Shown: positions 29,832-54,634 of the stretch, one piece after another
Position numbering within the stretch: the stretch's first letter is position 1
Layout: every line of letters starts with the position of its first letter
Assembly (NCBI GenBank): GCA_029001845.1
Contig: JAREWP010000093.1
Span: 1-64,000 of the forward strand
Length of the DNA stretch: 64,000 nt
Source: Candidatus Magnetocorallium paracelense
GTDB lineage: Bacteria > Nitrospirota > Thermodesulfovibrionia > Thermodesulfovibrionales > Magnetobacteriaceae
Direction: 5' to 3'
The notes under the pieces: generated by a model
Told to the model about the DNA's origin: nothing
The model's database searches: none
The model's input: only the letters and a program-made list of their open reading frames with translations
Translations under genes and position numbers: made by a program

Positions 29832-31064
29832 ATGAATGTTGGAATTGAAGCGATCAATGTTTACGGTGGACCTGCTTATATTGAGGTAAAGGAATTATTT
29901 GAATACCGAAACTTGGATGTAGACAGGTTTCATAATCTGATGATGGAACAAAAATCCGTTGGCCTGCCTTGTGAAGATGCTGTTACTGATGCGGTCAATG
30001 CAGCAAAACCGATTATCGATAATTTGTCGGATGAAGAAAAAAACAGAATAGAGCTTGTTATTACAGGGAGTGAATCTGCAATCGATGTAGGGAAAGCCCT
30101 GAGCACCTATATTCATGATTATCTGGGTTTAAGCCGTAATTGCAGGCTTTTGGAGGTTAAACAGTGCTGTTATTCAGGTACGGCAGCTCTTCAGTTGGCA
30201 AGCTCTTTTATCGTATCAAACGCATCTCCCGGCGCGAAGGCGCTTGTTTTGGCCGCAGATTCATTGCCAGATCTCAAGATGTCTTACGCAGAGCCTTCTA
30301 CCGGTGTGGGAGCAGTTGCAATGCTGGTGAGTGCTTATCCTGAAATTATGGAGCTCGATTTTGGCGCATCCGGTTATTATGGATATGAAGTAATGGATTT
30401 TGTAAGACCCACACCCGTAACAGGAAGAGGAGATATTGATTTATCCCTTCTTTCCTATCTGGATTGTCTGGAAAACAGTTATAACCATTATGAAGAAAAG
30501 GTTGAAGGCGTCGATTTTCGAGAGACATTTGGTTATCTGGCCTTTCATACGCCCTTTGCAGGCATGGTCAAAGGAGCCCACAGAAAATTGTTAAGGACCA
30601 AAAGTCCTGGAATTAAACCCCGGGAAATTGAAGAAGATTTTCAAAGGCGAGTGAAACCATCCTTTACTTATGGTGTCAGAGTCGGAAACCTGGCGGGCGG
30701 AAGTTTATATCTGGCTTTATGCGGTGTAATCGATTCCATGAAAGAACAGGACATGTGTCGGGTGGGAATGTTTTCATACGGGTCAGGTTGCTCATCGGAA
30801 TTTTATAGTGGAATGATAACGCCCCGCTCAAAAGCGCTTTTATCAAAGATGAAAATAAAAGATCAACTGGACAGTCGTTATAAATTAAAGATGGAACGAT
30901 ATGACAGATTACTCGACTTGTATGCGGAATGGATAATACCGGAAGAAAACAAAGAGACAACCATTTCAGATTATCCGGATGTCTACGAGCATTCTCTGGA
31001 AGGAAAAAATCTGTTAGTTCTTGAGAGAATAAAAGATTATCACAGGGAGTATAGATGGACCTAA
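29832..31064 (+). CDS. Polyketide beta-branching HMG-CoA synthase (PksG-like)
   Basis: This 410-residue enzyme has the catalytic Cys113 in EVKQCCYSGTAAL, His239 in LAFHTPFAGMVKGAHR and the expected length for the family. It catalyses aldol addition of acetyl from the donor ACP to the beta-ketone of an ACP-bound chain, the first step of beta-alkylation in trans-AT PKSs. It lies downstream of the donor ACP and is followed within about 15 bp by the ECH1 gene. The choice of PksG over primary-metabolism HMG-CoA synthase rests on context and the QCCYSG/FHTPF motifs. Confidence 0.92.
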   Translation: MNVGIEAINVYGGPAYIEVKELFEYRNLDVDRFHNLMMEQKSVGLPCEDAVTDAVNAAKPIIDNLSDEEKNRIELVITGSESAIDVGKALSTYIHDYLGLSRNCRLLEVKQCCYSGTAALQLASSFIVSNASPGAKALVLAADSLPDLKMSYAEPSTGVGAVAMLVSAYPEIMELDFGASGYYGYEVMDFVRPTPVTGRGDIDLSLLSYLDCLENSYNHYEEKVEGVDFRETFGYLAFHTPFAGMVKGAHRKLLRTKSPGIKPREIEEDFQRRVKPSFTYGVRVGNLAGGSLYLALCGVIDSMKEQDMCRVGMFSYGSGCSSEFYSGMITPRSKALLSKMKIKDQLDSRYKLKMERYDRLLDLYAEWIIPEENKETTISDYPDVYEHSLEGKNLLVLERIKDYHREYRWT

Positions 31065-31078
31065 CAGGAGATGTAGAG

Positions 31079-31828
31079 ATGGATTACAACACCATATTAT
31101 TAGAAAGATCATCAATAGGACTCCATATTATTTTGAATCGACCGGAAGAAGGAAATACGCTTACCACTGAATTGATACGGGAATTAGACCATGTTTTCAA
31201 TTTAGTTAAAAATGATTCGGAGATAAAAGTAGTCATATTAGAGGGGAAAAATGGTGTTTTTTGTAAAGGTATGGATTTTAAAACCGCTGTCTCATCAACT
31301 TCTGATGATTTCGAATATATGGATTTTCTTAAAAATTTAAGTTTAATGTCTAAAATCATCATATCGTCTGTTGATGGTCAGGTAATGGCGGGCGGAGTAG
31401 GGCTTGCCGCCGCAAGTGATATAGTTATTGCAACCCCCCAATCAAATTTTAGTCTGCCCGAGGCATTATGGGGACTTCTTCCCGCCGTGATAACGCCATT
31501 TATTGTTCGGAGAGTGGGATTTCAAAAAGCCTACGCCATGACACTTACAACAATGCCCATTTCAGCCGAAGACGCCTATTCCATAAATTTAGTAGATCAT
31601 ATAACAGAGACTCCTGAAAAAACGATCCGACAGTTGGGTGCAAGAGTGCTCCGTTTAGAAATCTCAACGATTGAAAAGATAAAAAACTATTTCAGAAAGA
31701 TGTGGATTATCAATGAAGAGATGGAACAGACGGCGGTGTCGGAGATTAAACATCTTATGTCAGATGAAAGGGTAAAAGAAAATATTCGCAATTTTGTGGA
31801 ACATCAAAAATTTCCATGGGATAAATAA
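31079..31828 (+). CDS. Enoyl-CoA hydratase-like ECH1 dehydratase (PksH-like)
   Basis: I prefer the ATG at 31079, preceded by AGGAG at the right distance; an upstream in-frame ATG at 31055 overlaps the HMGS stop. The 249-residue crotonase has the oxyanion-hole region GQVMAGGVGLAAASD and the segment LPEALWGLLPAVITPFIVRR followed by GFQKAYAMTLTT, typical of PksH-type ECH1 enzymes. It should dehydrate the HMG-like intermediate to a glutaconyl form, which the PKS-embedded ECH2 domains would then decarboxylate. Confidence 0.88.
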   Translation: MDYNTILLERSSIGLHIILNRPEEGNTLTTELIRELDHVFNLVKNDSEIKVVILEGKNGVFCKGMDFKTAVSSTSDDFEYMDFLKNLSLMSKIIISSVDGQVMAGGVGLAAASDIVIATPQSNFSLPEALWGLLPAVITPFIVRRVGFQKAYAMTLTTMPISAEDAYSINLVDHITETPEKTIRQLGARVLRLEISTIEKIKNYFRKMWIINEEMEQTAVSEIKHLMSDERVKENIRNFVEHQKFPWDK

Positions 31829-37007: not shown

Positions 37008-40000
37008 TTGAGTTTACATACAATCCCAAAACAAGATATAGCCATCATCGGCATGGCCTGCCGGTTTCCCGGGGCAAAGGATTATCATGCCTTCTGGAAT
37101 AATTTGATAAACGGCGTCAATTCCATCCGGGAAATACCGCCTGAGCGTTGGGATATTTCAACATATTACTCTCCTAACAAAAACAAACCCAATAGAAGTA
37201 TCAGCAAGTGGTGCGGACTTTTAGATAATATCGACCAATTCGATCATCGCTTCTTTTCAATCTCTCCTCGTGAAGCAAAAAGCATGGACCCACAGCAGCG
37301 CCTCCTCCTTGAAGAGACCTGGCATTGTATTGAAGATTCCGGAATATCGATAAAAGTACTACAAGAAAAGAAAACCTCTATATATGTAGGGGTAATGGCC
37401 GGTGATTATCATTCTAAGGGGTCTGAAATGATAACAGACAGTTACACCGCCCTGGGGAATTATGAATCCATACTGGCCAACCGGATATCGTACACCTTTG
37501 GTTTTCATGGCGCCAGCCTCACCATTAACGCTGCCTGCGCCGCTTCCATGGCAGCGCTCCATAATGCACAAACAATCCTGCTATCCGGAGAGAGTGACTA
37601 TGCCATTGCAGCCGGTGTAAACCTGAACATCCATCCCTGGAAGTATATTTCCTTCTCCAAATCCAGAATGCTCAGCCCGTACGGACAATGCAAAACATTC
37701 GATAAGGACGCCAATGGATATGTGCCGGGTGACGGTGTGGGCGTGCTTTTATTACAGCCATTGAAAGACGCCTTAAGAGATAAGTGTCATATATATGGAA
37801 TTATAAAAGGCAGCGCCGTAAACCATGTAGGCCATACTGCATCTATTACAGCACCAAGCGTAGATGGTCAGAGAGGAGTCATCATCGATGCCTGTAAAAA
37901 AGCCGGGGTGAGTCCTGAAACAGTAACCTATGTGGAAGCCCATGGAACAGGCACATCCCTTGGTGATCCCATAGAGGTAGAGGCCCTGACCAGGGCTTTT
38001 CGTGAATATACGGATCAAAAACAGTTTTGTAGAATCGGGTCTGTTAAGACCAATATTGGCCATCTGGAAGGGGCTGCGGGAATAGCAGGGATCATTAAAG
38101 TATTACTGATGATGAACTGTAAGAAAATTCCTCCCACATTAAATATAAAAACATTGAATCCGGTGATCAATTTTGAAGATTCACCCTTTATTGTGGCAAC
38201 CGAATTGGAAGAGTGGCCTGAAAGAGGTAAAAACCAACCTCTACGCGCCGGTATTAGCTCTTTTGGATTTGGCGGTGTCAATACCCATGTGATACTGGAA
38301 TCAATGGAAAATCATATTCCTTCCATATTAGAAGAAAGCAATGAAAAACAACCGTTTATCGTAACAGCCAAATCTCCGGCTGCCTTTAAAAATACGCTGC
38401 AAGGTTGGAGAGAATTTGTCAATGGAGACCTCTACCCAACCTATAGACTGATCGATATATGTGGAACCAATATAACGGCCAGAGAGGCCTTTTCCCATGG
38501 CTTTGGATGTTATGTCAGCAGCAAGGATGAACTAAAGGAAATCTTATCAAAAGAGATTGAACCTGCTTCAAGGCAATCGGAACATCCATGGTCGCTTATT
38601 ATCGGAGAGTGTAATTGGGAAGGCTTTGTCGATCCGGTAAAGCACATGTTAAGTGAACATCCCCTTTTAAAAGATAAACTGGATTTATTATTGAATGAAT
38701 TTTCTAAAATTATTCGTATTAAAAAAAGTACGATTCATGAAGAATTTTATCAACCTGTCTGGATTGAAACAAAAAAGCCCTTATATTCATTTATTGTAAA
38801 TCATGCAATTTTACTGACAACAATGGAATTCGGTTTTAAACCGAGTCTGTTGACAGGTGAAGGATCGGGTATATGGCAGGCCCTTACCTTAAGCGGGATC
38901 ATAAAAAAAGAAGAACTCTTTAAAATTCTGAAAGGACGCAAAAAACCTGAAGAGGCAGCCCTCTCCCGCCCTGCCCTGCCCTTCTATGACCCTGTTACAA
39001 AACAGACCATCATGACATACCGGATCGATGCCCGTTATCTCTCAACACTGATTGATGATATGGCTATCAATGAAGAAGAAAGCCGGTTCTTTATAGAAAA
39101 ATCCCGGATGATGCATACAAATCAGTATACCTTTAAGAAATACCTGGAACAATGGGGTTCAAGGCTGAAGGAAAGATCGAATAAGGAATTATCGGTGATG
39201 TTATATGATGATCAACTCCTTTTTAACACCGATGATCTTAATCAAAAAGAGAGACTATTATTCGTAATTATCTTAGCGGCGTCTCATCATTATGTAGAAC
39301 AAAAGTGGAATCTGTCGAAAGTAAAAGAGATAAGTGACAAAAAATTCAATGAGCTGTTGGATCTGGTCCTGGATGGGGTGATGACTCAGGAGGCATTGAT
39401 AGATCTGTTTACTCAAAAAGAACCTGATCTATACGCTATTGCTGCTCTCTTAAATGAAAGGCAGGGCCGGTTAAATAAAGAAAAGGCTTATCCATTTTTA
39501 AAGCGACATAGTCAGGCAATACCGGCATTACCGGATCATGATGATTGGTTTACGAAGGTCATGGAAACTTCCATGCCTGAACTGGATGGACATAACCGGC
39601 TGAAACTGGGTGGTACATTAAAAGAGAACAACGATCGTGTGATCCATATTGCTTCTAAAGAGTTAAATAATAATAATAATTCTATTTTAAGGAATATATT
39701 GCTTCGCTTATGGTTAAAAGGAGTAGATATCAAGTGGAACTTGTTTTACCGGAATGGCTCTTTTCATAAAATTCCTCTGCCTGTTTACGGATTCGACAGA
39801 ATGTCATTTTGGCTAAATGGAAAAGGAGAGAATAAGATGAAAGATAGAAAGGGGTATAGCGAATTAATAAAAAGCCATGACAATCCCAACACCTTTACAA
39901 GAGAATTGGATCCTGAAAAGGATGCAATCATAACAGATACCATTGTGGAAGGGTTTTTTATAACGCCCAGTCCTTTAAGAATAGAGATGGCCCTTCAGGC

Positions 40001-43000
40001 AGTGAGAGAGGTTGTTTCTTCACAGATAAATACCCTGTCAGCCCTTCGATTTCCTGATCCCGCCATTATAACCCAAAAAACAGAAATAGAAGTTGAAGTA
40101 TGGAAAAATACAAAGCAGTTTCATCTGAAAAAGGCAGGACAAATCATATGTTCAGGCAGGTTCGATATCACGGAAAAAGAATCTTCCGAACCTCTCTTAT
40201 TGGACGATTTATATAAAGGAAAGGTAACAAACCATGAAGATATATATTCATGGTTTCATGACTTTGGATACCATTATGGACCTGGAATGAGGCTTATAGA
40301 CAAAATTTGGGAAACTAAAGAGGCCTTTTTAGTTAAAATTATCCCTAAACCAACCCTTGAGGGAGATATAACGAAATTTGATCCCTTTATATTGGACTGT
40401 GTCTTTCAATCCGTCTTTTATGCAGGTCATACAATCGGTGATCTTTTCCAAAACAAATATTTATATCTTCCTTTAACAATAGGATCTCTACATCTGGCGG
40501 GCCCCCTTACAGATGAATGCTTTGCTCTTATTTCCAGGGAAAAACTCAGAATATTAGACAATAAGGATATGATCCTCGATATGGATGTATACGATAATAA
40601 CGGGCGGAACAAGATTCTGGAGATCAGGGAGATTCATTTTCGTCGTGTCCCCCGAAATTTCATCGATCAATATTTGGAAAAACAGCATAAAGAATTGGAG
40701 AATCCAATTGGAAAAAGAGATGAGAGCCTGGTGATTAAGGAGATCTTGTCGGTCATTGAATCTTATATAGAGGAAAATGCATCGGATATGAAACAGGTGG
40801 AAGAAGGGATGTCCCTGTTAGAGGATTATGGCAGATTACGCCTCTTTCATACCCTGTTCTTTAAAAACGGCGATGTGGTGACTAAAAAAGATATAAAGTT
40901 TATTGGAAAATATAAAAAATTGTCACGGGCGCTTTATGAAATGCTCGCTGTTTCGAAAATTATAGAGATGGAAGGAGAAAATGTTGTTATATCGAAAGAA
41001 TTTATCAGGGAAGATGATGTAATCGATAAGATTAAGGGCCTAAAGTCTTCCCTTGATGAAAAATATATAGCGATTAAACCTTTCCAAAACCTGCTTGAGT
41101 CTGCTGTCATTCAATATCCTGACGTGATATCAGGTAAAAAGAGCCATATGGAGGCCTTATTTCTCGGCGGGCAAACGGAACTCTTTAATCATGTGTATAA
41201 GGGAAACAGGCTGTCTGACTATTATAATCATCAGGTGAGATTAAGTCTGGAGACGATCATAAAGGAGAAACTGAAAGGCGATACAAATAAAAAGATAAAG
41301 ATCCTTGAATTAGGCGCCGGTATCGGAGGGACGACTGAGATTGTCCTTGATGGAATAAAATCTTATGGAGATCGAATCGAATATGTTTATACCGATATAT
41401 CCCTTGGATTTATCAATCTTGGCAGGAAGAGCTATGGTGATAAATATCCATTCTTAAGATTTCAACTGTTCGACCTTGAAAAGAAGGGAATTGAACAGGG
41501 ATTAGAGGAAAGTGAATTTGATATTATCCTGGCCACAAATACTCTCCATGCAACAAAAAATCTGGAACAAACCCTTTTAAATATAAAGGAGCTTTTAAAA
41601 AATAGTGAAGGTATACTCATTTTAAATGAAATCACCAGGGCTCAGGATTTTTGGACTATCGTGACCGGATTGATCAATGGCTGGTGGGTGTATCAGGATA
41701 ATGATCTGCGAATAAAAAATTCTCCCCTTGCTGATTTCGAAACCTGGAAGCGCCTTTTACATCAAGCGGGATTCCAGGATGTCCGCGGTTTTGACTTGAA
41801 GCGTAAAAGGGATTACGAACAAACCGTTATGATAGCCGTCCATAAAGCTGATCAGGCGAAAAAGGGTGATCATATCACTTCAAAAATGATAGAAAAAACG
41901 GATCATACCGTTTTATCGGATATATCGAAGGAAACATCCCGATATTTAAAAGAGATATTTGCCAAACAACTCCATTGTAAGATTGAAGAGATTGATGATA
42001 AGGGATCTTTTTCGGATGATTATGGGGTTGATTCCTTTGTCAATTTAGAAATAATCGAGATCCTAAAAAAAGAGTTTGGAGAAACTATACCCAATACTCT
42101 TTTATTTGAGTGCACAACCATGAAAAAGTTAACGGAATATGTAATAAATAACTTTGAAAGGGAACTCAAATTAAAACTTGGAGATTTCGAAACAGAAATG
42201 CCTGTAGAAAAAGAAAATCAGAGAGAGGAATCAGCGGAAGATCAAGGTGCTATTTATCCAGTCGGTCACAAAAGTATCCATGACGATTTTGCTCCATCTC
42301 AACGGGAGGAAGAAGATATTGCCATTATCGGATTAAACGGCCGTTTTCCTCTTTCGGAAGATGTCAATGCGTTGTGGGACCACCTTAAAAATGGAGAATC
42401 CTGTATCAGAGAAGTACCTGAAAGCAGATGGGATTACAGAAAATACTATGATCAAACAGGTAAGAGACCTGACAAAAGCTATACAAAGTATGGTGGTTTT
42501 CTGGATGACTACGACAAATTCGATGCCCCCTTTTTTCATATCTCACCCCGACAGGCGGAATTGATGGACCCCCAACAGCGGATTGTCCTTGAAACAGCCT
42601 GGGCTGTCATTGAAGACGCAGGATATACCAGGGCTGCGCTTCCGAGAAATACAGGCGTCTTTATCGGCGTTACAACCAACACCTATGGATTATGCGGATT
42701 GGAAGCATCACTAAAATCAGAGGAGACCTACTGCCCTGATACGGATAATTATGATGTACCCAACAGGGTATCCTATTTCTTTGATCTTCACGGCCCCAGT
42801 GTCGCCATCGATACCGCCTGCTCATCTTCTTTGAGCGCCATTCATATGGCGGTGAAAAGCCTGAAAAACAAGGAATCCGATGTGGCTATAGCAGGGGGTG
42901 TCAGTTTAACACTGCACCCCAACAGGGTAATTCAATTCTGCCAAAAGAGTATGCTGTTACCCGGAAAGGAGTGCCATCCCTTTGGACAAGGTGAGGGTGG

Positions 43001-46000
43001 CTTTGTCGATAGTGAGGGTGTGGCTCTTATCCTGTTAAAACCCCTGTTAAAAGCGATTAAAGATAGAGATCATATCTATGGAGTTATCAAGGGAACAGCC
43101 ATGAATTCAGGCGGGAAGACCAGTGGGTATACAGTACCCGATCCGGCGCGGCAGGCATCACTGGTTATAAATGCACTGGAAGATGCAAAGACAGACCCTG
43201 TTACCATCAGCTATATCGAAACTCACGGAACAGGCACAACACTTGGAGATCCTATAGAGGTGGAAGGACTCACAAAGGCCTTCAGGAAATATACGGATAA
43301 GACACAATACTGCCCAATCGGATCGATCAAGTCAAATATCGGCCATCTCATCGCGGCAGCCGGGGTTGCGGGGGTGACAAAGGTATTGCTCCAGATGAAA
43401 CACAAGACCCTGGTCCCGTCGATCCACTCTTCTTCTCCGAATTCTCACATAGATTTCAGTAAAACACCCTTTTTTGTTCAACAGAATCTTACAGAGTGGA
43501 AAAAACCTGAAATAGAGGGACGTCCATATCCCAGACGCGCGGGGATCAGCTCCTTTGGCGCGGGCGGCGCAAACGCCCATGTGATTATCGAGGAGTATGA
43601 GAGGGATCATTCGGATCTTAAGGTATCCTCTATAAAACCTTCTATAATTGTATTGTCCGCCAAAACAAAAGAGAGGTTACATGAATATATAAGAAAATTT
43701 TCGGATTGTTTAGAACTCGACATGGCAGGCGACGTAACTCTGGAAGATATCTCTTATACTTTGCAAACAGGCAGAGAAGCAATGGAGGAGCGTCTTGCCC
43801 TTATCGTTGACAGCAAAAATCAGCTTATTACAAAGCTGACAGATTACAGAAAGAGCAAGTCAGGGATAGAGGATTTGTATTCAGGCAATGTAAAAACAGA
43901 TAAAGGAACATCCGATCTATTGCTGAATGGAAACGCGGGAGAGGCATTTCTTGAAATCATAATAAAAGAGAGAAACCTTTCGAAATTGGCCCGCCTTTGG
44001 GTTACAGGAATTGAAATAGACTGGAACCTCCTTTACGGAGAGGTTAAACCGAGAAGAGTATCCCTCCCTGTCTATCCATTTGAAAAGAAACGTTACTGGT
44101 TCGATGATTACATTAAATTAAAAGAGGCTGAGAGAGAGGGGAAAAATACCTCTTCAATTTCGGATAAGGAAGAATCGAAAGATATACCGGAACAATCGAT
44201 AGAGATGCTTCAGAAACCTGAAAGTTATCGAGGCGATGAGGTTATCGTCCGTATCATAGACAATCATACGGGATTGGTGATCATGCAGGACAGGGAAGGG
44301 AGCAATACCTTTACAGAGAATCTGGTTTATGGACTCCAACAGGCCTTTCAGGAATTAAACCGGAACAGGGATATAAAGGTGATTGTCCTGACCGGCTACG
44401 ATAAGGTCTTTGCCATGGGAGGGAGTCAAAAGGATTTAACGAGATTATCAAGACAGGAAATTAACTTTACAAGTTTTAAATTCTTTTACCGGGGATTATT
44501 GGAAACCAGGGCGCCTGTTATAGTTGCCATGCAGGGCCATGCCTCGGGAGGCGGCCTGGTATTCGGCCTTTTCGGTGATATCATTATTATGGCAAGGGAG
44601 GGTGTTTACAGCGCCAACTTTATGGGCTATGGATTTACGCCGGGTCTTGGTACGACCTATATTCTGGAACAGAGATTCGGTAAAAGTCTGGCCACAGAGA
44701 TGATGTTTACCTCGAAATCCTATCGAGGCGCAGACCTGGAAAGGCGCGGAGGATCTGTTTTGTTTTGTAATCACGAGGCTGTGCTGAATGAAGCATTGAA
44801 TATGGCGAAAAACATGGTTGAAAAACCTGGGAAATCATTGGAAGTACTAAAAAAGGAACTTTCCGGACGTATTCTGGAACAACTCCCGTCTATTATTGAA
44901 AAAGAGGTTGTCATGCATGAGCATACATTCTCTTTACCGGAGGTCCGGAAGAACATAGAGAGCCATTTTCAAAAAGTCTCGGTCATAGGCAAAGCCGGGA
45001 ATGTGAATAATAAGCTAAAGCTTAAAGATCGGGAAGATATTTATTTACCGGCAAAAACTTCGGAGATAAATAATAGAAAGATGAGGTTAAAACCGCTTCA
45101 GGAACGATCGACAACAAATAATTCTTTAGAAAATTCTCCTGAGACAGCGGGGGATAACACAAATCCTGAGACCATGGAACCAACGCCTTTCAGGCCTGTA
45201 AAAAAATCAGCCCTCCATATTCGTAGTGAAGTGATCAATATCGTATCATCCCGCCTCCATATTAACAGGGAAGAAATAGACCCGGATATGCCGTTTCTTG
45301 AATTGGGAGTGGACTCCATAAGCGCAGTCGAAATTACACAGGACATTAATGAAAAGTTTCATATAACAAACCTTAGAGTGACGGACATATATAATCATCC
45401 CGATATATCATCCCTGACAAATTACCTGATGACCCTGGATATTGTTGATTATGATGTAAAAGTTGAATCCCACAGGATGCATATCGATGAAAAAGAGATC
45501 AGAGAGACCCCGGAGCCTCTGTTATTTTCTTCTATGAATACCACCGGTAATAAACCTCTTACAATAGAACCATACTCCAATCTCTACTTTCCGAAAAAGG
45601 AAACCGATATAGCTGTGATCGGTATATCGGCGCGATTCCCCGGCGCTGACAATGTTGAGCAATTCTGGCGGAATATCTGTGACAAAAGAGATGAAATAAG
45701 GGAAGTACCCAAAGACCGGTGGGACATTGGGCCTTACTTTCATCCTGACCCTGACAGGCCTGATAAGTCATACAGTAAATGGGGAGGTTTTCTGAAGGAT
45801 GTGGACAAGTTCGACCCGTTGTTTTTCGGTATTTCTCCCAAAGAGGCTGAAGTGATGGACCCCCAACAGCGCATACTTCTGGAAGAGGCATATCATACCA
45901 TCGAAGACGCCGGATACGACCCGGTTTACTTGTCAAAGGGGAAATGCGGCGTATTTATAGGCGCAGCCATGGGAGATTATTTGGGACGCAATAAGCCCGA

Positions 46001-49000
46001 TAATAACGTATATACCGGCTTTGCCTTTACCGGTCTGAACCTGTCCGTACTGGCAGGGAGAATCTCCTACTTTCTGGATTTGAAAGGCCCGGCCATTAGT
46101 ATCGACACAGCCTGCTCTTCCTCTCTCGCCGCCATTAGTATGGCCTGCCGGAGTATTGTGAGCAATGAATGTGACACTGCCCTGGCCGGAGGGATATCAT
46201 TGATGCACTCTCCCCTTCTCCATATCCAGGCAAGCCAGGCAGGTATGTTGTCAAAAGACGGGCGGTGCAAGCCCTTCAGTAACAGCGCAGATGGCATTGT
46301 TTTATCCGAAGGGGTGGGAATTATCCTTTTGAAACCCTATAAAAAGGCAATAGAGGACAATGATCATATTTATGGAGTTATCAAGGGATGGGGTACGAAT
46401 CAGGATGGTCATACAAACGGAATTACAGCCCCAAACCCTGAGGCACAGACAGAACTCGAACGTCATATTTATAAGGAATTCAATATCAATCCTGAGCACA
46501 TCCGCTACGCAGAGGCCCACGGGACAGGCACCAAACTGGGTGATCCCATTGAGATTAGAGGGTTAAGCGATGCCTTTAGGGAGTATACGAAGAAAAAAGG
46601 GTACTGCGCCATAGGTTCGGTGAAGAGCAATATCGGTCATACCACCATGGCGGCAGGTGTGGCAGGCTTGATAAAAGCGCTCCTTAGTCTGAAATATCGA
46701 GTGATACCACCGACGATCCATTGCGATGTTGAAAATGAACATATCGATTTTAAGGAAAGCCCTTTTTATCTGAACCGTGAGATCGGGAAATGGGAAAAAA
46801 CCGACAATACCGCCGGACTCGCCTGTGTCAGTTCCTTTGGGTTCAGCGGCACCAATGCCCATGTGGTGCTTGGGGAACACCTGCCGGATCATTCAATAAA
46901 AAGCAGAGACCAAATATCTACGCCAATTATCATACTCCTTTCCGCAAGAGATAAAGAGCAGCTCAGGAGAGTCGGGGAAAACCTGTTGAGCCACATCACC
47001 TTACACAAACCGGATATTTCAGACATGGCCTATACTCTCCAGGTAGGGAGAAAGGCCATGGCCCATAGAATTGCCTTTAAGGCGAAAGAGATGGATGATG
47101 TAAAAGAAAAGATATCCGAATATATTAACGGACAAGGCGAGGCAGCCGGTTTATGGGAAGGTGAGGTAAAGCTCAATCACGATCGTGTCACAATATTGGA
47201 AGAAGACGAGGATACGCAGGAGATGATTCGGAAATGGATATCAAAAGGTAAGGTCAGTAAACTGGCCGAACTCTGGGTAAAAGGATTGGACATTGACTGG
47301 AACCTCCTTTATGGGGAAGATAAACCCAGGAGAATTTCACTTCCCGCCTATCCCTTTGCTAAACAGAGATACTGGATACCGGATACAGGCCGAAAGATCG
47401 CAACCATACAATCAGGGATTACCCCGATTCATCCGCTTCTCCATGAAAACACCTCAACGTTACAACGGCAGCAATTCACCTCAACCTTTACCGGCGAAGA
47501 ATTCTTTCTCAGAGATCACCAGATCTTAAATGAAAAGGTTTTACCAGGGGTGGCATATTTGGAAATAGCCCTGGCAGCCGCCATAAAGGCCGTGGAGACG
47601 GATGACTGGAAAACCTGTAAACTCAAGGATATTATCTGGGCCGCGCCTGTCAAGGTCAATACCGGGCCCAGGGAAGTGAAGATAAACCTTTTCCCGGAAA
47701 CAGACAGCATTGCATACGAAGTGAGAACAGAAGACCCGGAAGCCGATCCGGATGAATCCCTGATTGTTCATAATCAGGGTAAGATAATCATAGACCCGGT
47801 CCGGTCAATTCCCACTGTCCTGGATATTCAGGCCATCAAGGAGCGGTGTACCGAACAATTGACTCCTCAAATATGCTACCGGACCTTTCAGAGTTTTGGT
47901 CTTCTCTATGGTCCCGCCTTTCAGGGAATCTCCGAACTCTATTACAACAATCAGGAGGTCCTGGCAAAAATAGAGATACCGGGATTAGATGAATCAAATT
48001 CCGGATTTTATCTCCATCCCGGCGTTCTGGACAGTGCATTGCAGGCGAGTCTGTGCCTGATCTTTGAAACTTTAAAAGGAACATCCACCCCTTATCTGCC
48101 TTTTGAACTTAAAGAACTGGAGATTTTTGAAATACCTCTTCCTGACACCATTTATGTTCATGTAACCTTTAGCAATAACAGCCTGCTCGATGAGATGGTA
48201 AAATATGACATTTCACTACTAAATCACCAGGGAGAAACAGTGGTGAGTCTAAAAGAGCTTGCTATCCGGCAGATGAGGGTGGGACGGGCTGGCCGGCGGG
48301 AACAGGCAAAACACTTAAATGAGTATGGCTTATTATACGCCACGCCTGAATGGAAAAATCAGAGTATTACCGGGACGACAGACTCAGCTTCGCAAGATAA
48401 AGAGCTTCATATGATCCTGATCGGCCAGAGTGAAGAGATGGCCCATACATTAAAAGAAAGACTCGCCCCAAAAACCGAGTTATCACTAACGACAATAAAC
48501 ACTCCTGAAGAGATCCTGGAGGCATTTAAGGTCTCTTTCCTGCATATAAAGGGCATAATAGAGAGTAAACCTTCTACACTTCAAACCATTATTGTTATAC
48601 CGTCAACGGATATTCCGGAATACTGTTACGCCCCTCTTACAGGGTTACTTAAGACGGCAACGCTTGAGCACACAAAGCTACAGGGAAAAGTCATTCAACT
48701 CCCGGAACTGACACCTGAACAGACAGCGGCTATCATTGAACAGGAGACGCAAACAACAGAGGATATGGAAGTTCGTTACCTTAAAGAGGATACCCAACGC
48801 CAGGTCAAAAGACTAATAGAAATAGAGCACCCTCCAGCCGGACCGATAAGTCCGCTCAAATCAGGCGGCGTATACTGGATAACCGGTGGTTTAGGGGGCT
48901 TGGGCCGGTTGTTTGCCGGAGAGTTTGCCAAAGCGGAAAATAGTACGATCATTCTCAGTAACCGGAGAGAACTCGATGAAATGAGTCAAAGAGAACTGGA

Positions 49001-52000
49001 AGAATTACAGAGAGAGGCCAAAGATCACCAAAGTACGGTTGAGTACGTTAGATGTGATGTAACCGACCGGGACTCAGTCATCGGGACAGTCAGAACCATC
49101 ATGGAAAACCATCATAAACTCACGGGTATTATCCATAGCGCCGGTGTAATAAAAGACAACTATATCCATAATAAGAGTGAGACCGAAATTGATGAAGTCA
49201 TGGCGCCCAAGATTTACGGCGCCTGGAACATAACTCAGGCCGTCTCAGGGGAAGAAGTCGATTTTATGGTTTTCTTTTCATCCATTGCAGGGATAAAGGG
49301 CAATCCGGGGCAGGCGGATTACGCAGGGGCCAATGCCTTCCTTGATGCCTTTGCCGATACTGAAAGCCGGGTCAACCGGAAGAAAATGGTCTCCATAAAC
49401 TGGCCCCTTTGGAAAGAAGGGGGCATGGAAGTCGAAAGCCGGACTGAAGAGATGTTGAAGCAGACTTTGGGCATCGTACCTTTAACAACAGAAAAGGGAT
49501 ATGCGGGGTTTCAATCGGCGCTAAACGGCCCATATAACCGGATAGTGGTTGCCGAAGGTCAATCCCGATTATTAAGGAAAAAACTATTGAATCAACCTTT
49601 ATTCAAATCGGACAGAAACAATGGGAATGCCCCGGAGGAGGTACTCAAAGAGAGGCTTAGACCGGAACTGACGGGAATCGTAAGCAATCTCATAATGATC
49701 AAACCTGAAGAACTGGATATAACCGATGATATCAGTGATTATGGCTTTGATTCCATACTGATTACGGAATTTATCAATAGAATTAAGAAAATATTCGATA
49801 TAAGTCTTATGCCGACCATCTTTTTTGAGTATAACACTCTTGAAGGTTTGATAAACTACCTGATAAAGGAACATGGAGCGGCGCTTCAGGATAAATATGG
49901 AATAAACAGAGATAAGGAAGATACAGAGGCTCACAAGATCGACATGACACCGGACGATCATATGCCGAATAATGCAATTAATCAAATAATTAGCAGAGGT
50001 CAACGGTTTATGGCTCCTCTCCAAATGGAGAGACCGAATAGGAAAGAGCCCATAGCTGTCATTGGAATGGCGGGAATCCTTCCTGAAGCGGAAAATCTGG
50101 ACCAATTTTGGGAAAATCTAATCCAGGGTAAAGAGTGTATAACCGAGATACCCAAAGACCGTTGGGACTGGAAGGCCTGTTACGGAGACCCAAACAGGGA
50201 AGAGGGGAAGACAAACGTCAAATGGGGCGGATTTATAAAGGATATCGATAAATTCGATCCCGCCTTTTTCAATATCTCCCCAAGGGAAGCCGAGCTGATG
50301 GACCCCCAGCAGCGGCTCTTCCTCCAATGCGTCTGGCATGCCATAGAACATGCCGGTTACAACCCAATGAGTCTCCGGGGCACCCAAACCGGCCTCTTCG
50401 TGGGAGTGGAAGGACAAGACTATCACGATCTCATAACAAAAAATCGCATAAAGACCGAGGCATACACGGCAACAGGCGTTGTACCATCCATGGCAGCCAA
50501 TCGAATCTCATTCTTATTGGGCTTTCATGGACCCAGCGAGCCGGTCTCAACAGCCTGTTCCAGCTCATTGGTCGCCATTCACCGGGCAGTGAGGGCCATT
50601 CATACGGGGGAGTGCGCTCAGGCCATTGCAGGGGGAGTCAATGCCATTCTTTCACCTGAGTTTCATATAAGTTTCAGCAAAGCGGGAATGCTCTCTGAAG
50701 ACGGGCGCTGCAAGACCTTCTCCGATAAGGCCGATGGATATGTAAGGGGAGAAGGGGTGGGGGCGATTCTGCTCAAACCCTTAAACCAGGCTATACAGGA
50801 TGGAGATAGGATTTACGCCGTAATCAGGGGGACTAGAACAAATCACGGCGGTCATGTAAACTCTCTTACTGCGCCTAATCCCAATGCCCAGGCGGAACTG
50901 ATAAAGGCCGCTTATGAAGAGGCCAATATTTCCCCTGATACCATCACCTACATAGAGACCCATGGCACAGGCACAGAACTGGGTGATCCCGTAGAGATTA
51001 ACGGCTTAAAAACGGCCTTTACATCTCTTTATGAAAAGTATCATCTCAAGGAACCTGAAAAACCGCATTGCGGAATCGGTTCCGTAAAGAGCAACATCGG
51101 CCATTTGGAGACTGCGGCGGGTATTGCAGGGCTGCTAAAGGTGATCCTGGCAATAAGGCATAAAGCAATTCCCCCTACGCTGCATTGTGACACCATCAAT
51201 CCCTATATAAATCTTCATAACACACCATTTTACATTGCCATGGAAAAAGGAGAATGGAAAAGCCTTACAGACAACTATGGAAATCCCGTACCGAGAAGGG
51301 CAGGTGTCAGTAGTTTCGGTTTTGGCGGCGCCTATGCCCATGTAGTGGTTGAAGAATTTTTAGAAACAGAAAAACCGGAAAATCAGGGAGTATCCCAAAA
51401 GGTGGTGATTCCCTTGTCGGCAAAAAACAGGATCCAATTAAAAAGTTACGCCCAACTCCTCACTGATGATCTGAATCAGAAAAAAGATAAAGACCTGGCT
51501 CATATAGCCTACACCCTCCAGACAGGCAGGGAGGCAATGAACAGCCGTATAGCCTTTTTGGTCAAAGATGTCGGTGAACTTAAGGAAAAACTCGACCAAT
51601 ATCTTAAGGGAGAAGAAGAGATAGAATATTTCCGAAAGGGGGAAGTTAAGATCAATCACGATGGCGTTGCAACCCTGACTATGGATGAAGACGCCAGGGA
51701 GATGATTCATAAATGGATTGCCAAAGATAAAATCGGCAAACTTGCAGATTTCTGGGTCAAAGGATTAAATATCGACTGGAATCTCCTCTATGGAGAAGTA
51801 AAGCCACAGAGAATAGCCCTCCCAGTCTATCCATTTGAAAAGAAACGTTACTGGTTTGACAGTTACAGGAAGTCCCAAAAGGCGAAGAAAGAGGAAAAAA
51901 ATGTTTCCTCCATTACAGATCAGGAAGAGTCAAAAAACGTCCGGGAAAGATCAACGGAATTGATCGCTAAGCCTGAAGATTATCGAGGTGATGAGGTTCT

Positions 52001-53384
52001 TGTCCGGATTATCAATAATCATATCGGAGTGGTCGTAATGCAGGACAGGGAGGGGACCAATACATTTACGGAAAATCTGGTTTACGGACTCCAACAGGCC
52101 TTTCAGGAATTAAAGGGAAACAAGGATATAAAGGTGATTGTTCTCACCGGCTATGATAAGGTATTCGCCATGGGAGGGGATCAAAAGGAGTTAACAAAAT
52201 TATCAAGGCGAGAGATCGAGTTTACAAGCTTTGCATTCTTTTACAAGGGACTGTTGGAATTGAAAGTCCCTGTTATTGTGGCCATGCAAGGCCATGCGTC
52301 GGGAGGCGGTTTGGTATTCGGCCTATTTGGTGATATGATTATCATGGCAAGAGAGGGTGTCTATAGTGCAAATTTTATGAGTTATGGCTTTACACCGGGT
52401 CTTGGGGCGACCTATATTCTGGAACAGAGGTTTGGTAAAAGCCTGGCCACGGAAATGATGTTTACATCTCGATCCTATAGAGGGGAAGAGCTGGAGAGAC
52501 GCGGGGGAACCGTCCTGTTTTGTAATCAGGAGATGGTGCTTAACGAAGCATTGAATGTGGCAAAAGAGTTGATTGAAAAACCGGGGAAATCATTAGAGGT
52601 TCTGAAGAAGGAACTTTCAGGGCGTATCCTGGAACAACTCCAATCTGTTATTGAAAAAGAGGCCGCCATGCATGCAGAGACATTCTCTTTACCTGAGGTG
52701 AAGAGGAACATTGAGAGCCATTTTCAGAAGGTTTCGGCTATGGGTAAAGGAGAATCAGGAAACGGGAAAAAGCCGCTGAAACTGAAAGATCCGAAAGATA
52801 TCTGTTTACCGGAAGAATCAAAGGACTCAAATAATAAAAAGATGAGATTAAAACCACTTCAAGATATGGCCGCAACAGATAATGCCTTCAATATCGATGA
52901 TACTTCCGTCACAGGGAACAATCCTCTGGCCATGGAGCCGGCCTTGAAACCTGTAAAAAGACCAGCCATGGATATTGAAACCGAGGTGATCAATATCCTA
53001 TCCGATCTGCTCCATATTGACAGGGACGATATAGACAGGGATATGCCCTTTCTTGAGTTGGGAGTGGACTCCATAAGCGCGGTGGAAATTATCCAGAAAA
53101 TAAATGAAAGATTTCATATAATAAGCCTTAAAGTAACCGATATATATGATTACCCTGATGTATCGTCTTTAATAAGACATATAGAGTCCCTGGACATAGC
53201 CGCTTTTAATCCTGAATCGGGAATGAAAAACCCGGATATAATGATTGACAGGCCATTCGAAAAGCATGAAAGTAGCAATGGAGATGAGATCGATAATTTA
53301 CTGAAGAGTTGTAAATCTATGAAAGTTTCTCCAAAAGAGGCTGCAAAACTATTTGTTAAAGGAGATATCTCTGAAAACATTTAG
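37008..53384 (+). CDS. Four-module trans-AT polyketide synthase with two embedded ECH domains
   Basis: A single 5458-residue protein with a TTG start (GAGGG ten bases upstream). Module 1: KS (Cys177, His312, His352; site reads AACAAS), a degenerate AT (about 525-720), DH-like domain lacking its His (about 964-1215), C-methyltransferase (SAM motif ILELGAGIGG near 1432) and ACP Ser1676. Module 2: KS Cys1938, ECH (about 2403-2662), ACP Ser2770. Module 3: KS Cys3036, DH (His3504, Asp3675), KR (TGGLGGLG, Tyr4105), ACP Ser4249. Module 4: KS Cys4517, ECH (about 4989-5245), ACP Ser5355. No working AT is present, so malonyl loading is in trans. The ECH domains carry ANFMGYGFTPGLG or ANFMSYGFTPGLG, the ECH2 decarboxylase type, and match the HMGS cassette at 29.4 kb. 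No thioesterase; the tail (5400-5458) may dock to another protein. Confidence 0.95.
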   Translation: MSLHTIPKQDIAIIGMACRFPGAKDYHAFWNNLINGVNSIREIPPERWDISTYYSPNKNKPNRSISKWCGLLDNIDQFDHRFFSISPREAKSMDPQQRLLLEETWHCIEDSGISIKVLQEKKTSIYVGVMAGDYHSKGSEMITDSYTALGNYESILANRISYTFGFHGASLTINAACAASMAALHNAQTILLSGESDYAIAAGVNLNIHPWKYISFSKSRMLSPYGQCKTFDKDANGYVPGDGVGVLLLQPLKDALRDKCHIYGIIKGSAVNHVGHTASITAPSVDGQRGVIIDACKKAGVSPETVTYVEAHGTGTSLGDPIEVEALTRAFREYTDQKQFCRIGSVKTNIGHLEGAAGIAGIIKVLLMMNCKKIPPTLNIKTLNPVINFEDSPFIVATELEEWPERGKNQPLRAGISSFGFGGVNTHVILESMENHIPSILEESNEKQPFIVTAKSPAAFKNTLQGWREFVNGDLYPTYRLIDICGTNITAREAFSHGFGCYVSSKDELKEILSKEIEPASRQSEHPWSLIIGECNWEGFVDPVKHMLSEHPLLKDKLDLLLNEFSKIIRIKKSTIHEEFYQPVWIETKKPLYSFIVNHAILLTTMEFGFKPSLLTGEGSGIWQALTLSGIIKKEELFKILKGRKKPEEAALSRPALPFYDPVTKQTIMTYRIDARYLSTLIDDMAINEEESRFFIEKSRMMHTNQYTFKKYLEQWGSRLKERSNKELSVMLYDDQLLFNTDDLNQKERLLFVIILAASHHYVEQKWNLSKVKEISDKKFNELLDLVLDGVMTQEALIDLFTQKEPDLYAIAALLNERQGRLNKEKAYPFLKRHSQAIPALPDHDDWFTKVMETSMPELDGHNRLKLGGTLKENNDRVIHIASKELNNNNNSILRNILLRLWLKGVDIKWNLFYRNGSFHKIPLPVYGFDRMSFWLNGKGENKMKDRKGYSELIKSHDNPNTFTRELDPEKDAIITDTIVEGFFITPSPLRIEMALQAVREVVSSQINTLSALRFPDPAIITQKTEIEVEVWKNTKQFHLKKAGQIICSGRFDITEKESSEPLLLDDLYKGKVTNHEDIYSWFHDFGYHYGPGMRLIDKIWETKEAFLVKIIPKPTLEGDITKFDPFILDCVFQSVFYAGHTIGDLFQNKYLYLPLTIGSLHLAGPLTDECFALISREKLRILDNKDMILDMDVYDNNGRNKILEIREIHFRRVPRNFIDQYLEKQHKELENPIGKRDESLVIKEILSVIESYIEENASDMKQVEEGMSLLEDYGRLRLFHTLFFKNGDVVTKKDIKFIGKYKKLSRALYEMLAVSKIIEMEGENVVISKEFIREDDVIDKIKGLKSSLDEKYIAIKPFQNLLESAVIQYPDVISGKKSHMEALFLGGQTELFNHVYKGNRLSDYYNHQVRLSLETIIKEKLKGDTNKKIKILELGAGIGGTTEIVLDGIKSYGDRIEYVYTDISLGFINLGRKSYGDKYPFLRFQLFDLEKKGIEQGLEESEFDIILATNTLHATKNLEQTLLNIKELLKNSEGILILNEITRAQDFWTIVTGLINGWWVYQDNDLRIKNSPLADFETWKRLLHQAGFQDVRGFDLKRKRDYEQTVMIAVHKADQAKKGDHITSKMIEKTDHTVLSDISKETSRYLKEIFAKQLHCKIEEIDDKGSFSDDYGVDSFVNLEIIEILKKEFGETIPNTLLFECTTMKKLTEYVINNFERELKLKLGDFETEMPVEKENQREESAEDQGAIYPVGHKSIHDDFAPSQREEEDIAIIGLNGRFPLSEDVNALWDHLKNGESCIREVPESRWDYRKYYDQTGKRPDKSYTKYGGFLDDYDKFDAPFFHISPRQAELMDPQQRIVLETAWAVIEDAGYTRAALPRNTGVFIGVTTNTYGLCGLEASLKSEETYCPDTDNYDVPNRVSYFFDLHGPSVAIDTACSSSLSAIHMAVKSLKNKESDVAIAGGVSLTLHPNRVIQFCQKSMLLPGKECHPFGQGEGGFVDSEGVALILLKPLLKAIKDRDHIYGVIKGTAMNSGGKTSGYTVPDPARQASLVINALEDAKTDPVTISYIETHGTGTTLGDPIEVEGLTKAFRKYTDKTQYCPIGSIKSNIGHLIAAAGVAGVTKVLLQMKHKTLVPSIHSSSPNSHIDFSKTPFFVQQNLTEWKKPEIEGRPYPRRAGISSFGAGGANAHVIIEEYERDHSDLKVSSIKPSIIVLSAKTKERLHEYIRKFSDCLELDMAGDVTLEDISYTLQTGREAMEERLALIVDSKNQLITKLTDYRKSKSGIEDLYSGNVKTDKGTSDLLLNGNAGEAFLEIIIKERNLSKLARLWVTGIEIDWNLLYGEVKPRRVSLPVYPFEKKRYWFDDYIKLKEAEREGKNTSSISDKEESKDIPEQSIEMLQKPESYRGDEVIVRIIDNHTGLVIMQDREGSNTFTENLVYGLQQAFQELNRNRDIKVIVLTGYDKVFAMGGSQKDLTRLSRQEINFTSFKFFYRGLLETRAPVIVAMQGHASGGGLVFGLFGDIIIMAREGVYSANFMGYGFTPGLGTTYILEQRFGKSLATEMMFTSKSYRGADLERRGGSVLFCNHEAVLNEALNMAKNMVEKPGKSLEVLKKELSGRILEQLPSIIEKEVVMHEHTFSLPEVRKNIESHFQKVSVIGKAGNVNNKLKLKDREDIYLPAKTSEINNRKMRLKPLQERSTTNNSLENSPETAGDNTNPETMEPTPFRPVKKSALHIRSEVINIVSSRLHINREEIDPDMPFLELGVDSISAVEITQDINEKFHITNLRVTDIYNHPDISSLTNYLMTLDIVDYDVKVESHRMHIDEKEIRETPEPLLFSSMNTTGNKPLTIEPYSNLYFPKKETDIAVIGISARFPGADNVEQFWRNICDKRDEIREVPKDRWDIGPYFHPDPDRPDKSYSKWGGFLKDVDKFDPLFFGISPKEAEVMDPQQRILLEEAYHTIEDAGYDPVYLSKGKCGVFIGAAMGDYLGRNKPDNNVYTGFAFTGLNLSVLAGRISYFLDLKGPAISIDTACSSSLAAISMACRSIVSNECDTALAGGISLMHSPLLHIQASQAGMLSKDGRCKPFSNSADGIVLSEGVGIILLKPYKKAIEDNDHIYGVIKGWGTNQDGHTNGITAPNPEAQTELERHIYKEFNINPEHIRYAEAHGTGTKLGDPIEIRGLSDAFREYTKKKGYCAIGSVKSNIGHTTMAAGVAGLIKALLSLKYRVIPPTIHCDVENEHIDFKESPFYLNREIGKWEKTDNTAGLACVSSFGFSGTNAHVVLGEHLPDHSIKSRDQISTPIIILLSARDKEQLRRVGENLLSHITLHKPDISDMAYTLQVGRKAMAHRIAFKAKEMDDVKEKISEYINGQGEAAGLWEGEVKLNHDRVTILEEDEDTQEMIRKWISKGKVSKLAELWVKGLDIDWNLLYGEDKPRRISLPAYPFAKQRYWIPDTGRKIATIQSGITPIHPLLHENTSTLQRQQFTSTFTGEEFFLRDHQILNEKVLPGVAYLEIALAAAIKAVETDDWKTCKLKDIIWAAPVKVNTGPREVKINLFPETDSIAYEVRTEDPEADPDESLIVHNQGKIIIDPVRSIPTVLDIQAIKERCTEQLTPQICYRTFQSFGLLYGPAFQGISELYYNNQEVLAKIEIPGLDESNSGFYLHPGVLDSALQASLCLIFETLKGTSTPYLPFELKELEIFEIPLPDTIYVHVTFSNNSLLDEMVKYDISLLNHQGETVVSLKELAIRQMRVGRAGRREQAKHLNEYGLLYATPEWKNQSITGTTDSASQDKELHMILIGQSEEMAHTLKERLAPKTELSLTTINTPEEILEAFKVSFLHIKGIIESKPSTLQTIIVIPSTDIPEYCYAPLTGLLKTATLEHTKLQGKVIQLPELTPEQTAAIIEQETQTTEDMEVRYLKEDTQRQVKRLIEIEHPPAGPISPLKSGGVYWITGGLGGLGRLFAGEFAKAENSTIILSNRRELDEMSQRELEELQREAKDHQSTVEYVRCDVTDRDSVIGTVRTIMENHHKLTGIIHSAGVIKDNYIHNKSETEIDEVMAPKIYGAWNITQAVSGEEVDFMVFFSSIAGIKGNPGQADYAGANAFLDAFADTESRVNRKKMVSINWPLWKEGGMEVESRTEEMLKQTLGIVPLTTEKGYAGFQSALNGPYNRIVVAEGQSRLLRKKLLNQPLFKSDRNNGNAPEEVLKERLRPELTGIVSNLIMIKPEELDITDDISDYGFDSILITEFINRIKKIFDISLMPTIFFEYNTLEGLINYLIKEHGAALQDKYGINRDKEDTEAHKIDMTPDDHMPNNAINQIISRGQRFMAPLQMERPNRKEPIAVIGMAGILPEAENLDQFWENLIQGKECITEIPKDRWDWKACYGDPNREEGKTNVKWGGFIKDIDKFDPAFFNISPREAELMDPQQRLFLQCVWHAIEHAGYNPMSLRGTQTGLFVGVEGQDYHDLITKNRIKTEAYTATGVVPSMAANRISFLLGFHGPSEPVSTACSSSLVAIHRAVRAIHTGECAQAIAGGVNAILSPEFHISFSKAGMLSEDGRCKTFSDKADGYVRGEGVGAILLKPLNQAIQDGDRIYAVIRGTRTNHGGHVNSLTAPNPNAQAELIKAAYEEANISPDTITYIETHGTGTELGDPVEINGLKTAFTSLYEKYHLKEPEKPHCGIGSVKSNIGHLETAAGIAGLLKVILAIRHKAIPPTLHCDTINPYINLHNTPFYIAMEKGEWKSLTDNYGNPVPRRAGVSSFGFGGAYAHVVVEEFLETEKPENQGVSQKVVIPLSAKNRIQLKSYAQLLTDDLNQKKDKDLAHIAYTLQTGREAMNSRIAFLVKDVGELKEKLDQYLKGEEEIEYFRKGEVKINHDGVATLTMDEDAREMIHKWIAKDKIGKLADFWVKGLNIDWNLLYGEVKPQRIALPVYPFEKKRYWFDSYRKSQKAKKEEKNVSSITDQEESKNVRERSTELIAKPEDYRGDEVLVRIINNHIGVVVMQDREGTNTFTENLVYGLQQAFQELKGNKDIKVIVLTGYDKVFAMGGDQKELTKLSRREIEFTSFAFFYKGLLELKVPVIVAMQGHASGGGLVFGLFGDMIIMAREGVYSANFMSYGFTPGLGATYILEQRFGKSLATEMMFTSRSYRGEELERRGGTVLFCNQEMVLNEALNVAKELIEKPGKSLEVLKKELSGRILEQLQSVIEKEAAMHAETFSLPEVKRNIESHFQKVSAMGKGESGNGKKPLKLKDPKDICLPEESKDSNNKKMRLKPLQDMAATDNAFNIDDTSVTGNNPLAMEPALKPVKRPAMDIETEVINILSDLLHIDRDDIDRDMPFLELGVDSISAVEIIQKINERFHIISLKVTDIYDYPDVSSLIRHIESLDIAAFNPESGMKNPDIMIDRPFEKHESSNGDEIDNLLKSCKSMKVSPKEAAKLFVKGDISENI
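44215..45490. repeat. Internal duplication: ECH-ACP segment of PKS module 2
   Basis: This segment is highly similar at the DNA level to 51965-53230 of module 4. For example, CTGGTTTATGGACTCCAACA and ATGAAGCATTGAATATGGC recur almost unchanged. The KS regions just upstream are far less alike, so only the ECH-ACP cassette was recently copied or homogenised by gene conversion. Confidence 0.8.
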
Positions 53385-53425: not shown

Positions 53426-53830
53426 ATGATAGACATTATTACAGATACAAATATATTTTTAGCTGTAGCTCTTGATGAACCGGAAAAGGATGAAATCATC
53501 CGGATGACATCCGATGTTTGTGCAATAGCTCCGGAAATATTGCCCTATGAAATCGGAAATGCTTTTACAGCAATGGTAAAACGGAAACAAATAACGCATA
53601 ATGAAGCATTGCCGGCATTTGAAATAGCCAATCAAATACTTGTAAAACTTGTATCTGTTGATATACAAAAAGCTTTAACAATAGCACTTGAATTTAATCT
53701 TTCTGCTTATGATGCTTATTTCTTGCAATGCGCCGAGACTTTTTCATTTCCACTGATCGCACTAGATAAAAGAATGAAGCAAGTAGCTATCGAACTGAAC
53801 ATTAAAGTATTGGAGGTAGGGCAAAAATGA
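53426..53830 (+). CDS. VapC-like PIN-domain toxin
   Basis: This 134-residue PIN ribonuclease has first acidic residue Asp in IITDTNIFLAVAL, Glu in PYEIGNAF, Asp in FNLSAYDAYFLQCA and a C-terminal LIALDKRMKQVA. All four catalytic acid positions expected for VapC are visible. Unlike most vapBC pairs the toxin gene comes first, with its stop overlapping the antitoxin start (ATGA). It follows the PKS by 41 bp and may be read through from it. Confidence 0.87.
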   Translation: MIDIITDTNIFLAVALDEPEKDEIIRMTSDVCAIAPEILPYEIGNAFTAMVKRKQITHNEALPAFEIANQILVKLVSVDIQKALTIALEFNLSAYDAYFLQCAETFSFPLIALDKRMKQVAIELNIKVLEVGQK

Positions 53831-54054: not shown

Positions 54055-54097
54055 CGGTCACCAAAAAAAACAGAACACAGATTTATAAGACTGCACA

Positions 54098-54433: not shown

Positions 54434-54607
54434 CTCAAAAATAAATTCGTAATTAAAAGAGACAGATTTGCATTATATTTGGTTGCACTGAATGAGCAAA
54501 ACCGCAGGCATAGCAGCGCTATGTTGAGGATTTTGCGATTGAAGTGCAATCAAAGATGATGTGAAGGTGTCACCTTTTAATGCGAATTTATTTTTGAGTC
54601 AACCCTT
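54425..54607. mobile_element. About 180-bp MITE with 25-bp perfect terminal inverted repeats
   Basis: The ends AAGGGTTGACTCAAAAATAA plus ATTCG (54425-54449) are an exact inverse complement of 54583-54607. Taking AGGGTTGACTC as the tip, both sides are flanked by TA, the target duplication of Tc1/mariner or IS630-type transposases. It carries no coding capacity and sits against the HEPN relic. Confidence 0.8.
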
Positions 54608-54634
54608 AGGGCATAGGATGTTGAGTAAAAATGA

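Follow-up and report, generated by a model that had tools for sequence, protein, structure and literature searches.

Two ECH2-containing modules of a trans-AT polyketide synthase in Candidatus Magnetocorallium paracelense and their predicted role in beta-branching

A 64,000-nucleotide stretch of the genome of Candidatus Magnetocorallium paracelense (the window) holds a polyketide synthase gene, PKS1, in which two modules carry an ECH2 domain between KS and ACP. The question raised by this locus is whether the two modules specify two beta-branches at fixed positions, and whether such a layout stands apart from known pathways. How an assembly line selects few beta-ketones among many for branching is debated, and the Trp-flag model has exceptions. 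A search of the literature on Magnetobacterium polyketides returned none.

PKS1 was read from a TTG start as one uninterrupted frame of 5,458 aa, with the domain order KS1-dead AT-DH*-cMT-ACP / KS2-ECH2-ACP / KS3-DH-KR-ACP / KS4-ECH2-ACP in Pfam and NCBIfam searches (Table 1). The first module had been called KS-pseudoAT-DH*-cMT-ACP in a sequence-only reading of the window, and the call was correct: DH1 has no catalytic His, and the insert behind KS1 is modelled as an acyltransferase (AT) without the Ser. This 480-aa insert gave no match in a Pfam AT search. Its AlphaFold model (pLDDT 81) was aligned to the AT of ZmaA (Z 24.8, rmsd 3.3, 306 residues), and the nucleophile Ser was replaced in all five aligned copies of the dead AT; as modelled, the insert is an AT fold predicted to be catalytically dead. 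In the KS tree, KS1 fell into one clade (five rows, SH-aLRT 100) with other KSs that start a line and have a dead AT behind them. A first KS with a dead AT is possibly a starter-module type, and KS1 may have the starter role. Dead ATs after the first KS were seen at 38340-39782 of the window and at loci L183, L004, L155, and L152, in lines of this genome, Vallitalea, and Paenibacillus.

Table 1. Positions of the HMGS cassette genes, PKS1, and the PKS1 domains in the window
Feature	Position	Strand	Basis and remarks
Discrete donor ACP, 87 aa	29462..29725	+	PP-binding; NF005502 71.9 bits (under cutoff 79); CurB nearest solved chain, E 1.4e-7
HMG-ACP synthase	29832..31064	+	CurD E ~2e-142, PksG E 1e-134; catalytic Cys in KQCCYSGT
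ECH1, predicted dehydratase	31055..31828	+	nearest solved: putative ECH 4nnq E 1.5e-50, PksH 3hp0 E 1.4e-34
PKS1, four modules	37008..53384	+	ORF, Pfam, NCBIfam
KS1	37032..38306	+	Cys-His-His present; in clade of line-starting KSs with dead AT next
Acyltransferase, predicted dead	38340..39782	+	GHSxG replaced by GEGSG; AlphaFold model
DH*	39855..40655	+	Pfam; catalytic His missing
C-methyltransferase	40881..41843	+	Methyltransf_12 and others (Pfam); SAM motif ILELGAGIGG
ACP1	41940..42143	+	Pfam
KS2	42309..43598	+	KS tree; DNA comparison with contig C40
ECH2, module 2, embedded, predicted decarboxylase	44241..44972	+	NF005496 279.7 bits; catalytic His
Acceptor ACP, module 2	45219..45443	+	GVDSISAVEI; Ile at Trp-flag position
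KS3	45606..46877	+	NIGHTTMAAG; after-ECH2 clade; predicted to receive module 2 branch
DH, module 3	47421..48290	+	Pfam; active-site His and Asp present
KR, module 3	48864..49424	+	Pfam; alignment, catalytic residues kept
ACP3	49665..49880	+	Pfam
KS4	50043..51359	+	Pfam; catalytic residues kept
ECH2, module 4, embedded, predicted decarboxylase	51996..52730	+	NF005496 284 bits; catalytic His
Acceptor ACP, module 4	52980..53198	+	GVDSISAVEI; Ile at Trp-flag position

The earlier observation of an ECH2 between KS and ACP in modules 2 and 4 was confirmed: two domains (aa 2412-2655 and 4997-5241, 280-284 bits), each flanked by KS and ACP, passed the cutoff of the PksI family (NF005496, 215 bits). 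Their nearest solved structures by phmmer were PksI (4q1g, E 1.7e-61) and the CurF ECH2 (2q2x, E 2.4e-49). In the alignment, both domains keep the decarboxylase His and the oxyanion glycines; the His is equivalent to His230, on which PksI depends (PMC7501309). By cutoff, His, and glycines, both are PksI-type and predicted decarboxylases. The missing catalytic Lys of CurF and PksI was considered as a sign of inactivity and dropped, as this position varies among free ECH2s as well and Lys80 of PksI is dispensable (PMC7501309). The module 4 ECH2 is 84% identical to that of module 2, and purifying selection was observed on the ECH2 copies (dN/dS about 0.10) and on KS3/KS5 (0.09). Catalytic residues are kept in KS, DH (module 3), KR, HMGS, ECH1, and ECH2, and the two embedded modules probably function. 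No truncated ECHa was detected ahead of either ECH2 domain. Apart from these two, the genome (99.6% complete) has no ECH2 at the PksI-family cutoff, and among 396 genomes of the same phylum only the present one passes it.

HMGS, donor ACP, ECH1, and ECH2 of an HMGS beta-branching cassette are present. HMGS was found in a single copy and no other ECH2 exceeded the cutoff, so the two embedded domains are the only decarboxylation candidates in the available genome. The donor ACP, HMGS, and ECH1 are separate genes, as read earlier, at 5.2-7.5 kb upstream of PKS1 rather than the 6-8 kb then given, and ECH1 keeps acidic residues aligned to PksH Asp68 and Glu137. The modules had also been described as self-contained, which goes too far: only decarboxylation is placed in cis, and aldol addition and dehydration need HMGS, donor ACP, and ECH1 in trans. 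The nearest solved structures for HMGS, donor ACP, and ECH2 come from the curacin A cassette (CurB-CurF) and B. subtilis PksG/H/I; however, PksI is free-standing, and the CurF ECH2 is from a cis-AT line. No gene for a KS-type decarboxylase (Ser nucleophile) lies between donor ACP and HMGS, and a profile search of the genome gave no PksF-type KS-decarboxylase over the cutoff; the two nearest free-standing KSs keep the Cys nucleophile and score under it. Directly upstream of the cassette (26879-29171) are two overlapping genes, each with a cyclic-nucleotide-binding domain and a CAAX-type protease. Between the cassette and PKS1 (33658-36867) lie genes for a glycosyltransferase, a Gfo/Idh/MocA dehydrogenase, and an FAD oxidoreductase, which are possible tailoring or starter genes.

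The earlier reading missed both the absence of a KS-decarboxylase gene and the continuation of the line outside the window. There, a second gene, PKS2, runs from position 65206 of contig C58 to the contig end at 83127, which interrupts it. Its order is KS5-DH-ACP-KS6-DH-KR-ACP-KS7-ACP-KS8-DH-KR-ACP-C-FkbH-PCP-thioester reductase. By the gene order and KS5, PKS2 would act after PKS1. Its C-FkbH-PCP-thioester reductase end (L001/L002) suggests that a glyceryl unit is attached via the C domain, followed by reductive release. No AT matches were found in the modules of PKS1 or PKS2, and a trans-acting AT-AT-NMO gene was found on contig C15. By its sequence, the line is assigned to the modular trans-AT type, with modules lacking a working AT, AT in trans, and KSs grouped by incoming chain. 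PKS1 and PKS2 lie about 12 kb apart, with toxin-antitoxin-like and NACHT/TIR genes in between, so co-expression of the two is not assured.

Relatives were taken as the best 80 ECH2 matches among 85,000 species genomes, searched with an ECH2 alignment. Ten of these loci carry ECH2 inside a PKS with KS and ACP, and two further embedded-ECH2 loci were found on plasmids of Kitasatospora and Photobacterium; similar KS-ECH2-ACP modules are found across six or more further bacterial phyla. A related-locus search with the first half of PKS1 gave no relatives. Closest in layout were Paenibacillus monticola LC-T2 (L152-L154) and Vallitalea sp. McD1.14 (L155-L157). Both lines begin with a KS and a dead AT and come with genes for donor ACP, HMGS, and ECH1; in neither did a discrete ECH2 exceed the cutoff. 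The former has two KS-ECH2-ACP modules and the latter three, with one KS-DH-KR-ACP module between them as in PKS1. They differ from PKS1 in having a KS-decarboxylase and tandem ACPs, and both are uncharacterised too. A KS-type malonyl-ACP decarboxylase adjoins HMGS in Paenibacillus, Vallitalea, Aquimarina, Sporocytophaga, and a Prochloraceae cyanobacterium, and sits between donor ACP and HMGS in the first two; perhaps it is a usual but not obligatory cassette part. In the cyanobacterium (L171, 6948-12860), a single ECH2-C-FkbH-ACP protein is encoded right after the KS-HMGS-ECH1 genes.

Characterised pathways also have embedded ECHs. Module 6 of palmerolide is a KS-ECH-ACP beta-branching module with a trans HMGS cassette, but with two trans ECHs plus the embedded one, and its product is known (PMC8739492); pederin, onnamide, psymberin, oocydin, phormidolide, and mandelalide are cited beside it as KS-ECH-ACP precedents (PMC8739492). 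The lasonolide A PKS (LasH, LasO), according to the available part of its description, is a trans-AT line with two embedded ECH2 in two modules, a separate ECH1, and apparently no free (trans) ECH2, as in the present genome (PMC9600693). It differs in having a truncated ECHa before each ECH2, Trp-flag ACPs, and the KS-decarboxylase LasD, and its ECH2 modules, numbers 1 and 10, lack the one-DH-KR spacing of PKS1 (PMC9600693). The modular ECH2 (mECH) of kalimantacin also acts in cis, but it competes with the trans ECH2 BatE to give an exo-methylene, and no free ECH2 was found in the present genome (PMC12560621). Several ECH2 domains are used in kalimantacin, phormidolide, leptolyngbyalide, and oocydin (PMC12560621). 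The rarity implied earlier is therefore contradicted by the palmerolide and lasonolide precedents and by Paenibacillus monticola (two modules) and Vallitalea (three), with the same one DH-KR spacing. It still stands that no characterised match was recognised: no pathway with a known product was found to share the complete domain order. KS-ECH2-ACP modules are not rare, and the pathway is an uncharacterised one of an already known type.

Split HMGS beta-branching at modules 2 and 4, with ECH2 in cis, HMGS, donor ACP, and ECH1 in trans, and a duplicated block, is the reading that is held with high confidence. PKS1 would open a trans-AT polyketide assembly line. HMGS and the donor ACP would add acetate in trans to the beta-ketone on ACP2 and ACP4, ECH1 would then dehydrate the bound intermediate in trans, the built-in PksI-type ECH2 would decarboxylate it in cis within the same module, and KS3 and KS5 would accept the branched chain. 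If both branches were endo-beta-methyl, the chain on ACP4 would be R-CO-CH(CH3)-C(CH3)=CH-CH=CH-C(CH3)=CH-CO-S, in which four carbons separate the two beta-methyls; a polyketide route would thereby yield a terpenoid-like pattern.

A KS-clade phylogeny had been proposed as a check. The 13 KSs that come next after an embedded ECH2 module, from nine genomes or MAGs, all fell within one 20-row clade (SH-aLRT 99), with four changes of the after-ECH2 label against a mean of 12.3 when labels were shuffled. KS3 and KS5 were grouped with four KSs of Vallitalea, Paenibacillus, and an Ectothiorhodospiraceae MAG (SH-aLRT 97), and the after-ECH2 KSs have GH(T/A)-type motifs in common. The two thus sit with KSs located behind modules of the KS-ECH2-ACP type in unrelated bacteria, and this cross-phylum placement supports beta-branching at both sites. 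With intact ECH2 modules, the low dN/dS of about 0.10, and the KS clade, the earlier prediction of two beta-branches at fixed positions, with one DH-KR unit between them and a C-methylated unit ahead, is reasonable.

The outcome of the branching is less firm. An exo-methylene (beta,gamma) at the embedded ECH2, as made by the kalimantacin modular ECH, has an appreciable if minority chance of being the product instead of an endo-beta-methyl. Kalimantacin module 11 makes an exo-beta-methylene with an in-cis mECH (PMC12560621), and pederin-type lines put embedded ECHs at exomethylene positions (PMC6855096); as a lone embedded ECH2 yields this group in kalimantacin, the endo-methyl is not settled for PKS1. 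However, exo-methylenes are commonly tied to a truncated ECHa directly before ECH2 (PMC9600693), a domain detected not in PKS1 but in a Nostoc locus having W-flag ACPs. The PKS1 ECH2 also clusters apart from those of Nostoc and Ensifer, although one clade for all embedded ECH2 is compatible with the AU test (p 0.558).

The double module most likely arose by within-line duplication of an ECH2-ACP-KS-DH-KR-ACP-KS block, with the copied KR lost later. In their ECH2-ACP parts, modules 2 and 4 share 65-92% identity over ECH2, climbing at LPVYPF (LPxYPFx5W motif), and KS3-DH-KR-ACP-KS4 pairs with KS5-DH-ACP-KS6, from which the KR is missing. These pairings imply that the block was duplicated and later split by the intervening genes; duplication, as against another form of copying, is what we infer. 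That the two-branch layout is instead an inherited unit common to Paenibacillus monticola and Vallitalea is rather unlikely. Spacing, similar cassette order, and the starting KS-dead AT are shared with both, and gene conversion could mimic a sister pattern, but the two PKS1 ECH2 copies are sisters (SH-aLRT 100), as are KS3 and KS5 (SH-aLRT 100), and in Paenibacillus and Vallitalea the pairing runs between the two lines, copies at matching positions going together.

The core of KS2 (about 42330-43500) is mostly 95-100% identical in DNA, by sliding window, to a KS on contig C40 that belongs to a second PKS line and is followed by DH-KR in place of ECH2. Beyond the core, identity decays in a mosaic tail, and the idea of a single exchange ending exactly at LPxYPFx5W was dropped; the near-identity is attributed on sequence grounds to recent KS exchange or gene conversion. 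LPTYPFx5W is a proposed recombination site (PMC11260071), and the duplicated block and the KS2/C40 near-identity resemble the module reshuffling exploited for engineering at this motif (PMC11260071).

At the Trp-flag position (Ser+6), both PKS1 acceptor ACPs have Ile. Beta-branching ACPs without Trp are known from virginiamycin and leinamycin (PMC10006238), and with these exceptions the flag is not strictly defining for an HMGS cassette. Ile, Leu, or Met occupies the position in all readable ACPs of the PKS1-type module class (22 and three more), and in the 17 sampled modules of the PKS1-type ECH2 cluster no readable ACP had the flag. The other ECH2 cluster (Nostoc and Ensifer, two embedded modules) has Trp in 4/4 ACPs; the Nostoc locus has both ECHa and Trp, the Ensifer locus Trp alone, and PKS1 neither. 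By sequence features, PKS1 would fall outside the lasonolide/pederin type of embedded ECH module, which combines a truncated ECHa with Trp-flag ACPs. Loci with ACPs but no KS-ECH2-ACP module had Trp ACPs in 14 of 52 cases. Two mis-anchored ACP motif reads (NORP loci) were left out of the counts. That one or both ECH2 modules are remnants, with the cassette dead and plain beta-ketones passed on, is improbable: the genome has no KS-decarboxylase found, the acceptor ACPs lack Trp, and the cluster has taken up toxin-antitoxin-like and repeat elements, but both dN/dS values are low, the full set of catalytic residues is kept, and Trp is absent from every readable ACP of the same module class in other genomes.

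A single origin of all embedded ECH2 had looked clear (15 rows, 100); after the plasmid loci were added, two clusters (17 and 2) were obtained in a quick tree of a sample drawn by similarity to the window. At least two embedded ECH2 and no free ECH2 over the cutoff were found in the present genome, Vallitalea, Paenibacillus, and Ectothiorhodospiraceae, and one embedded plus one free ECH2 in Anaerolineae, Aquimarina, and Sorangium; these are small numbers, with some genomes incomplete. These modules may fairly be read as a second cis-ECH2 class. A fuller version is offered tentatively: a distinct class, spread across six or more further phyla, whose built-in ECH2 and Trp-less ACP would fix the branch position in place of a Trp-flag ACP and a roaming ECH2, with multi-module lines lacking a free ECH2 and, here, a donor ACP charged without a KS-decarboxylase. 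Such Trp-less modules with a cis decarboxylase would be a natural test set for branching selection.

Toxin-antitoxin- and defence-like genes lie within the PKS cluster at 32349-33065, 53426-55645, 56240-63254, and from 63349 onward of the window; they include AbiEii nucleotidyltransferase, PIN, HEPN-like, RelE-like, NACHT-FGE, TIR-FGE, and AAA/PDDEXK_9 types. At their 3' ends (58994-59270 and 60959-61236), the NACHT-FGE and TIR-FGE genes share an 83% identical repeat with these two copies only in the genome. The copies are near-identical around and beyond the stop of the first gene, and the second gene is frame-shifted by an indel. A 135-bp repeat (96% identical, 26421-26555 and 31918-32052), for which an Rfam search gave no match, has more copies on contigs C40, C100, C66, C94, and C15. 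A repeat of about 160 bp (17313-17476) has copies on contigs C100, C40, C71, C80, C97, and C72 that are 80-85% identical.
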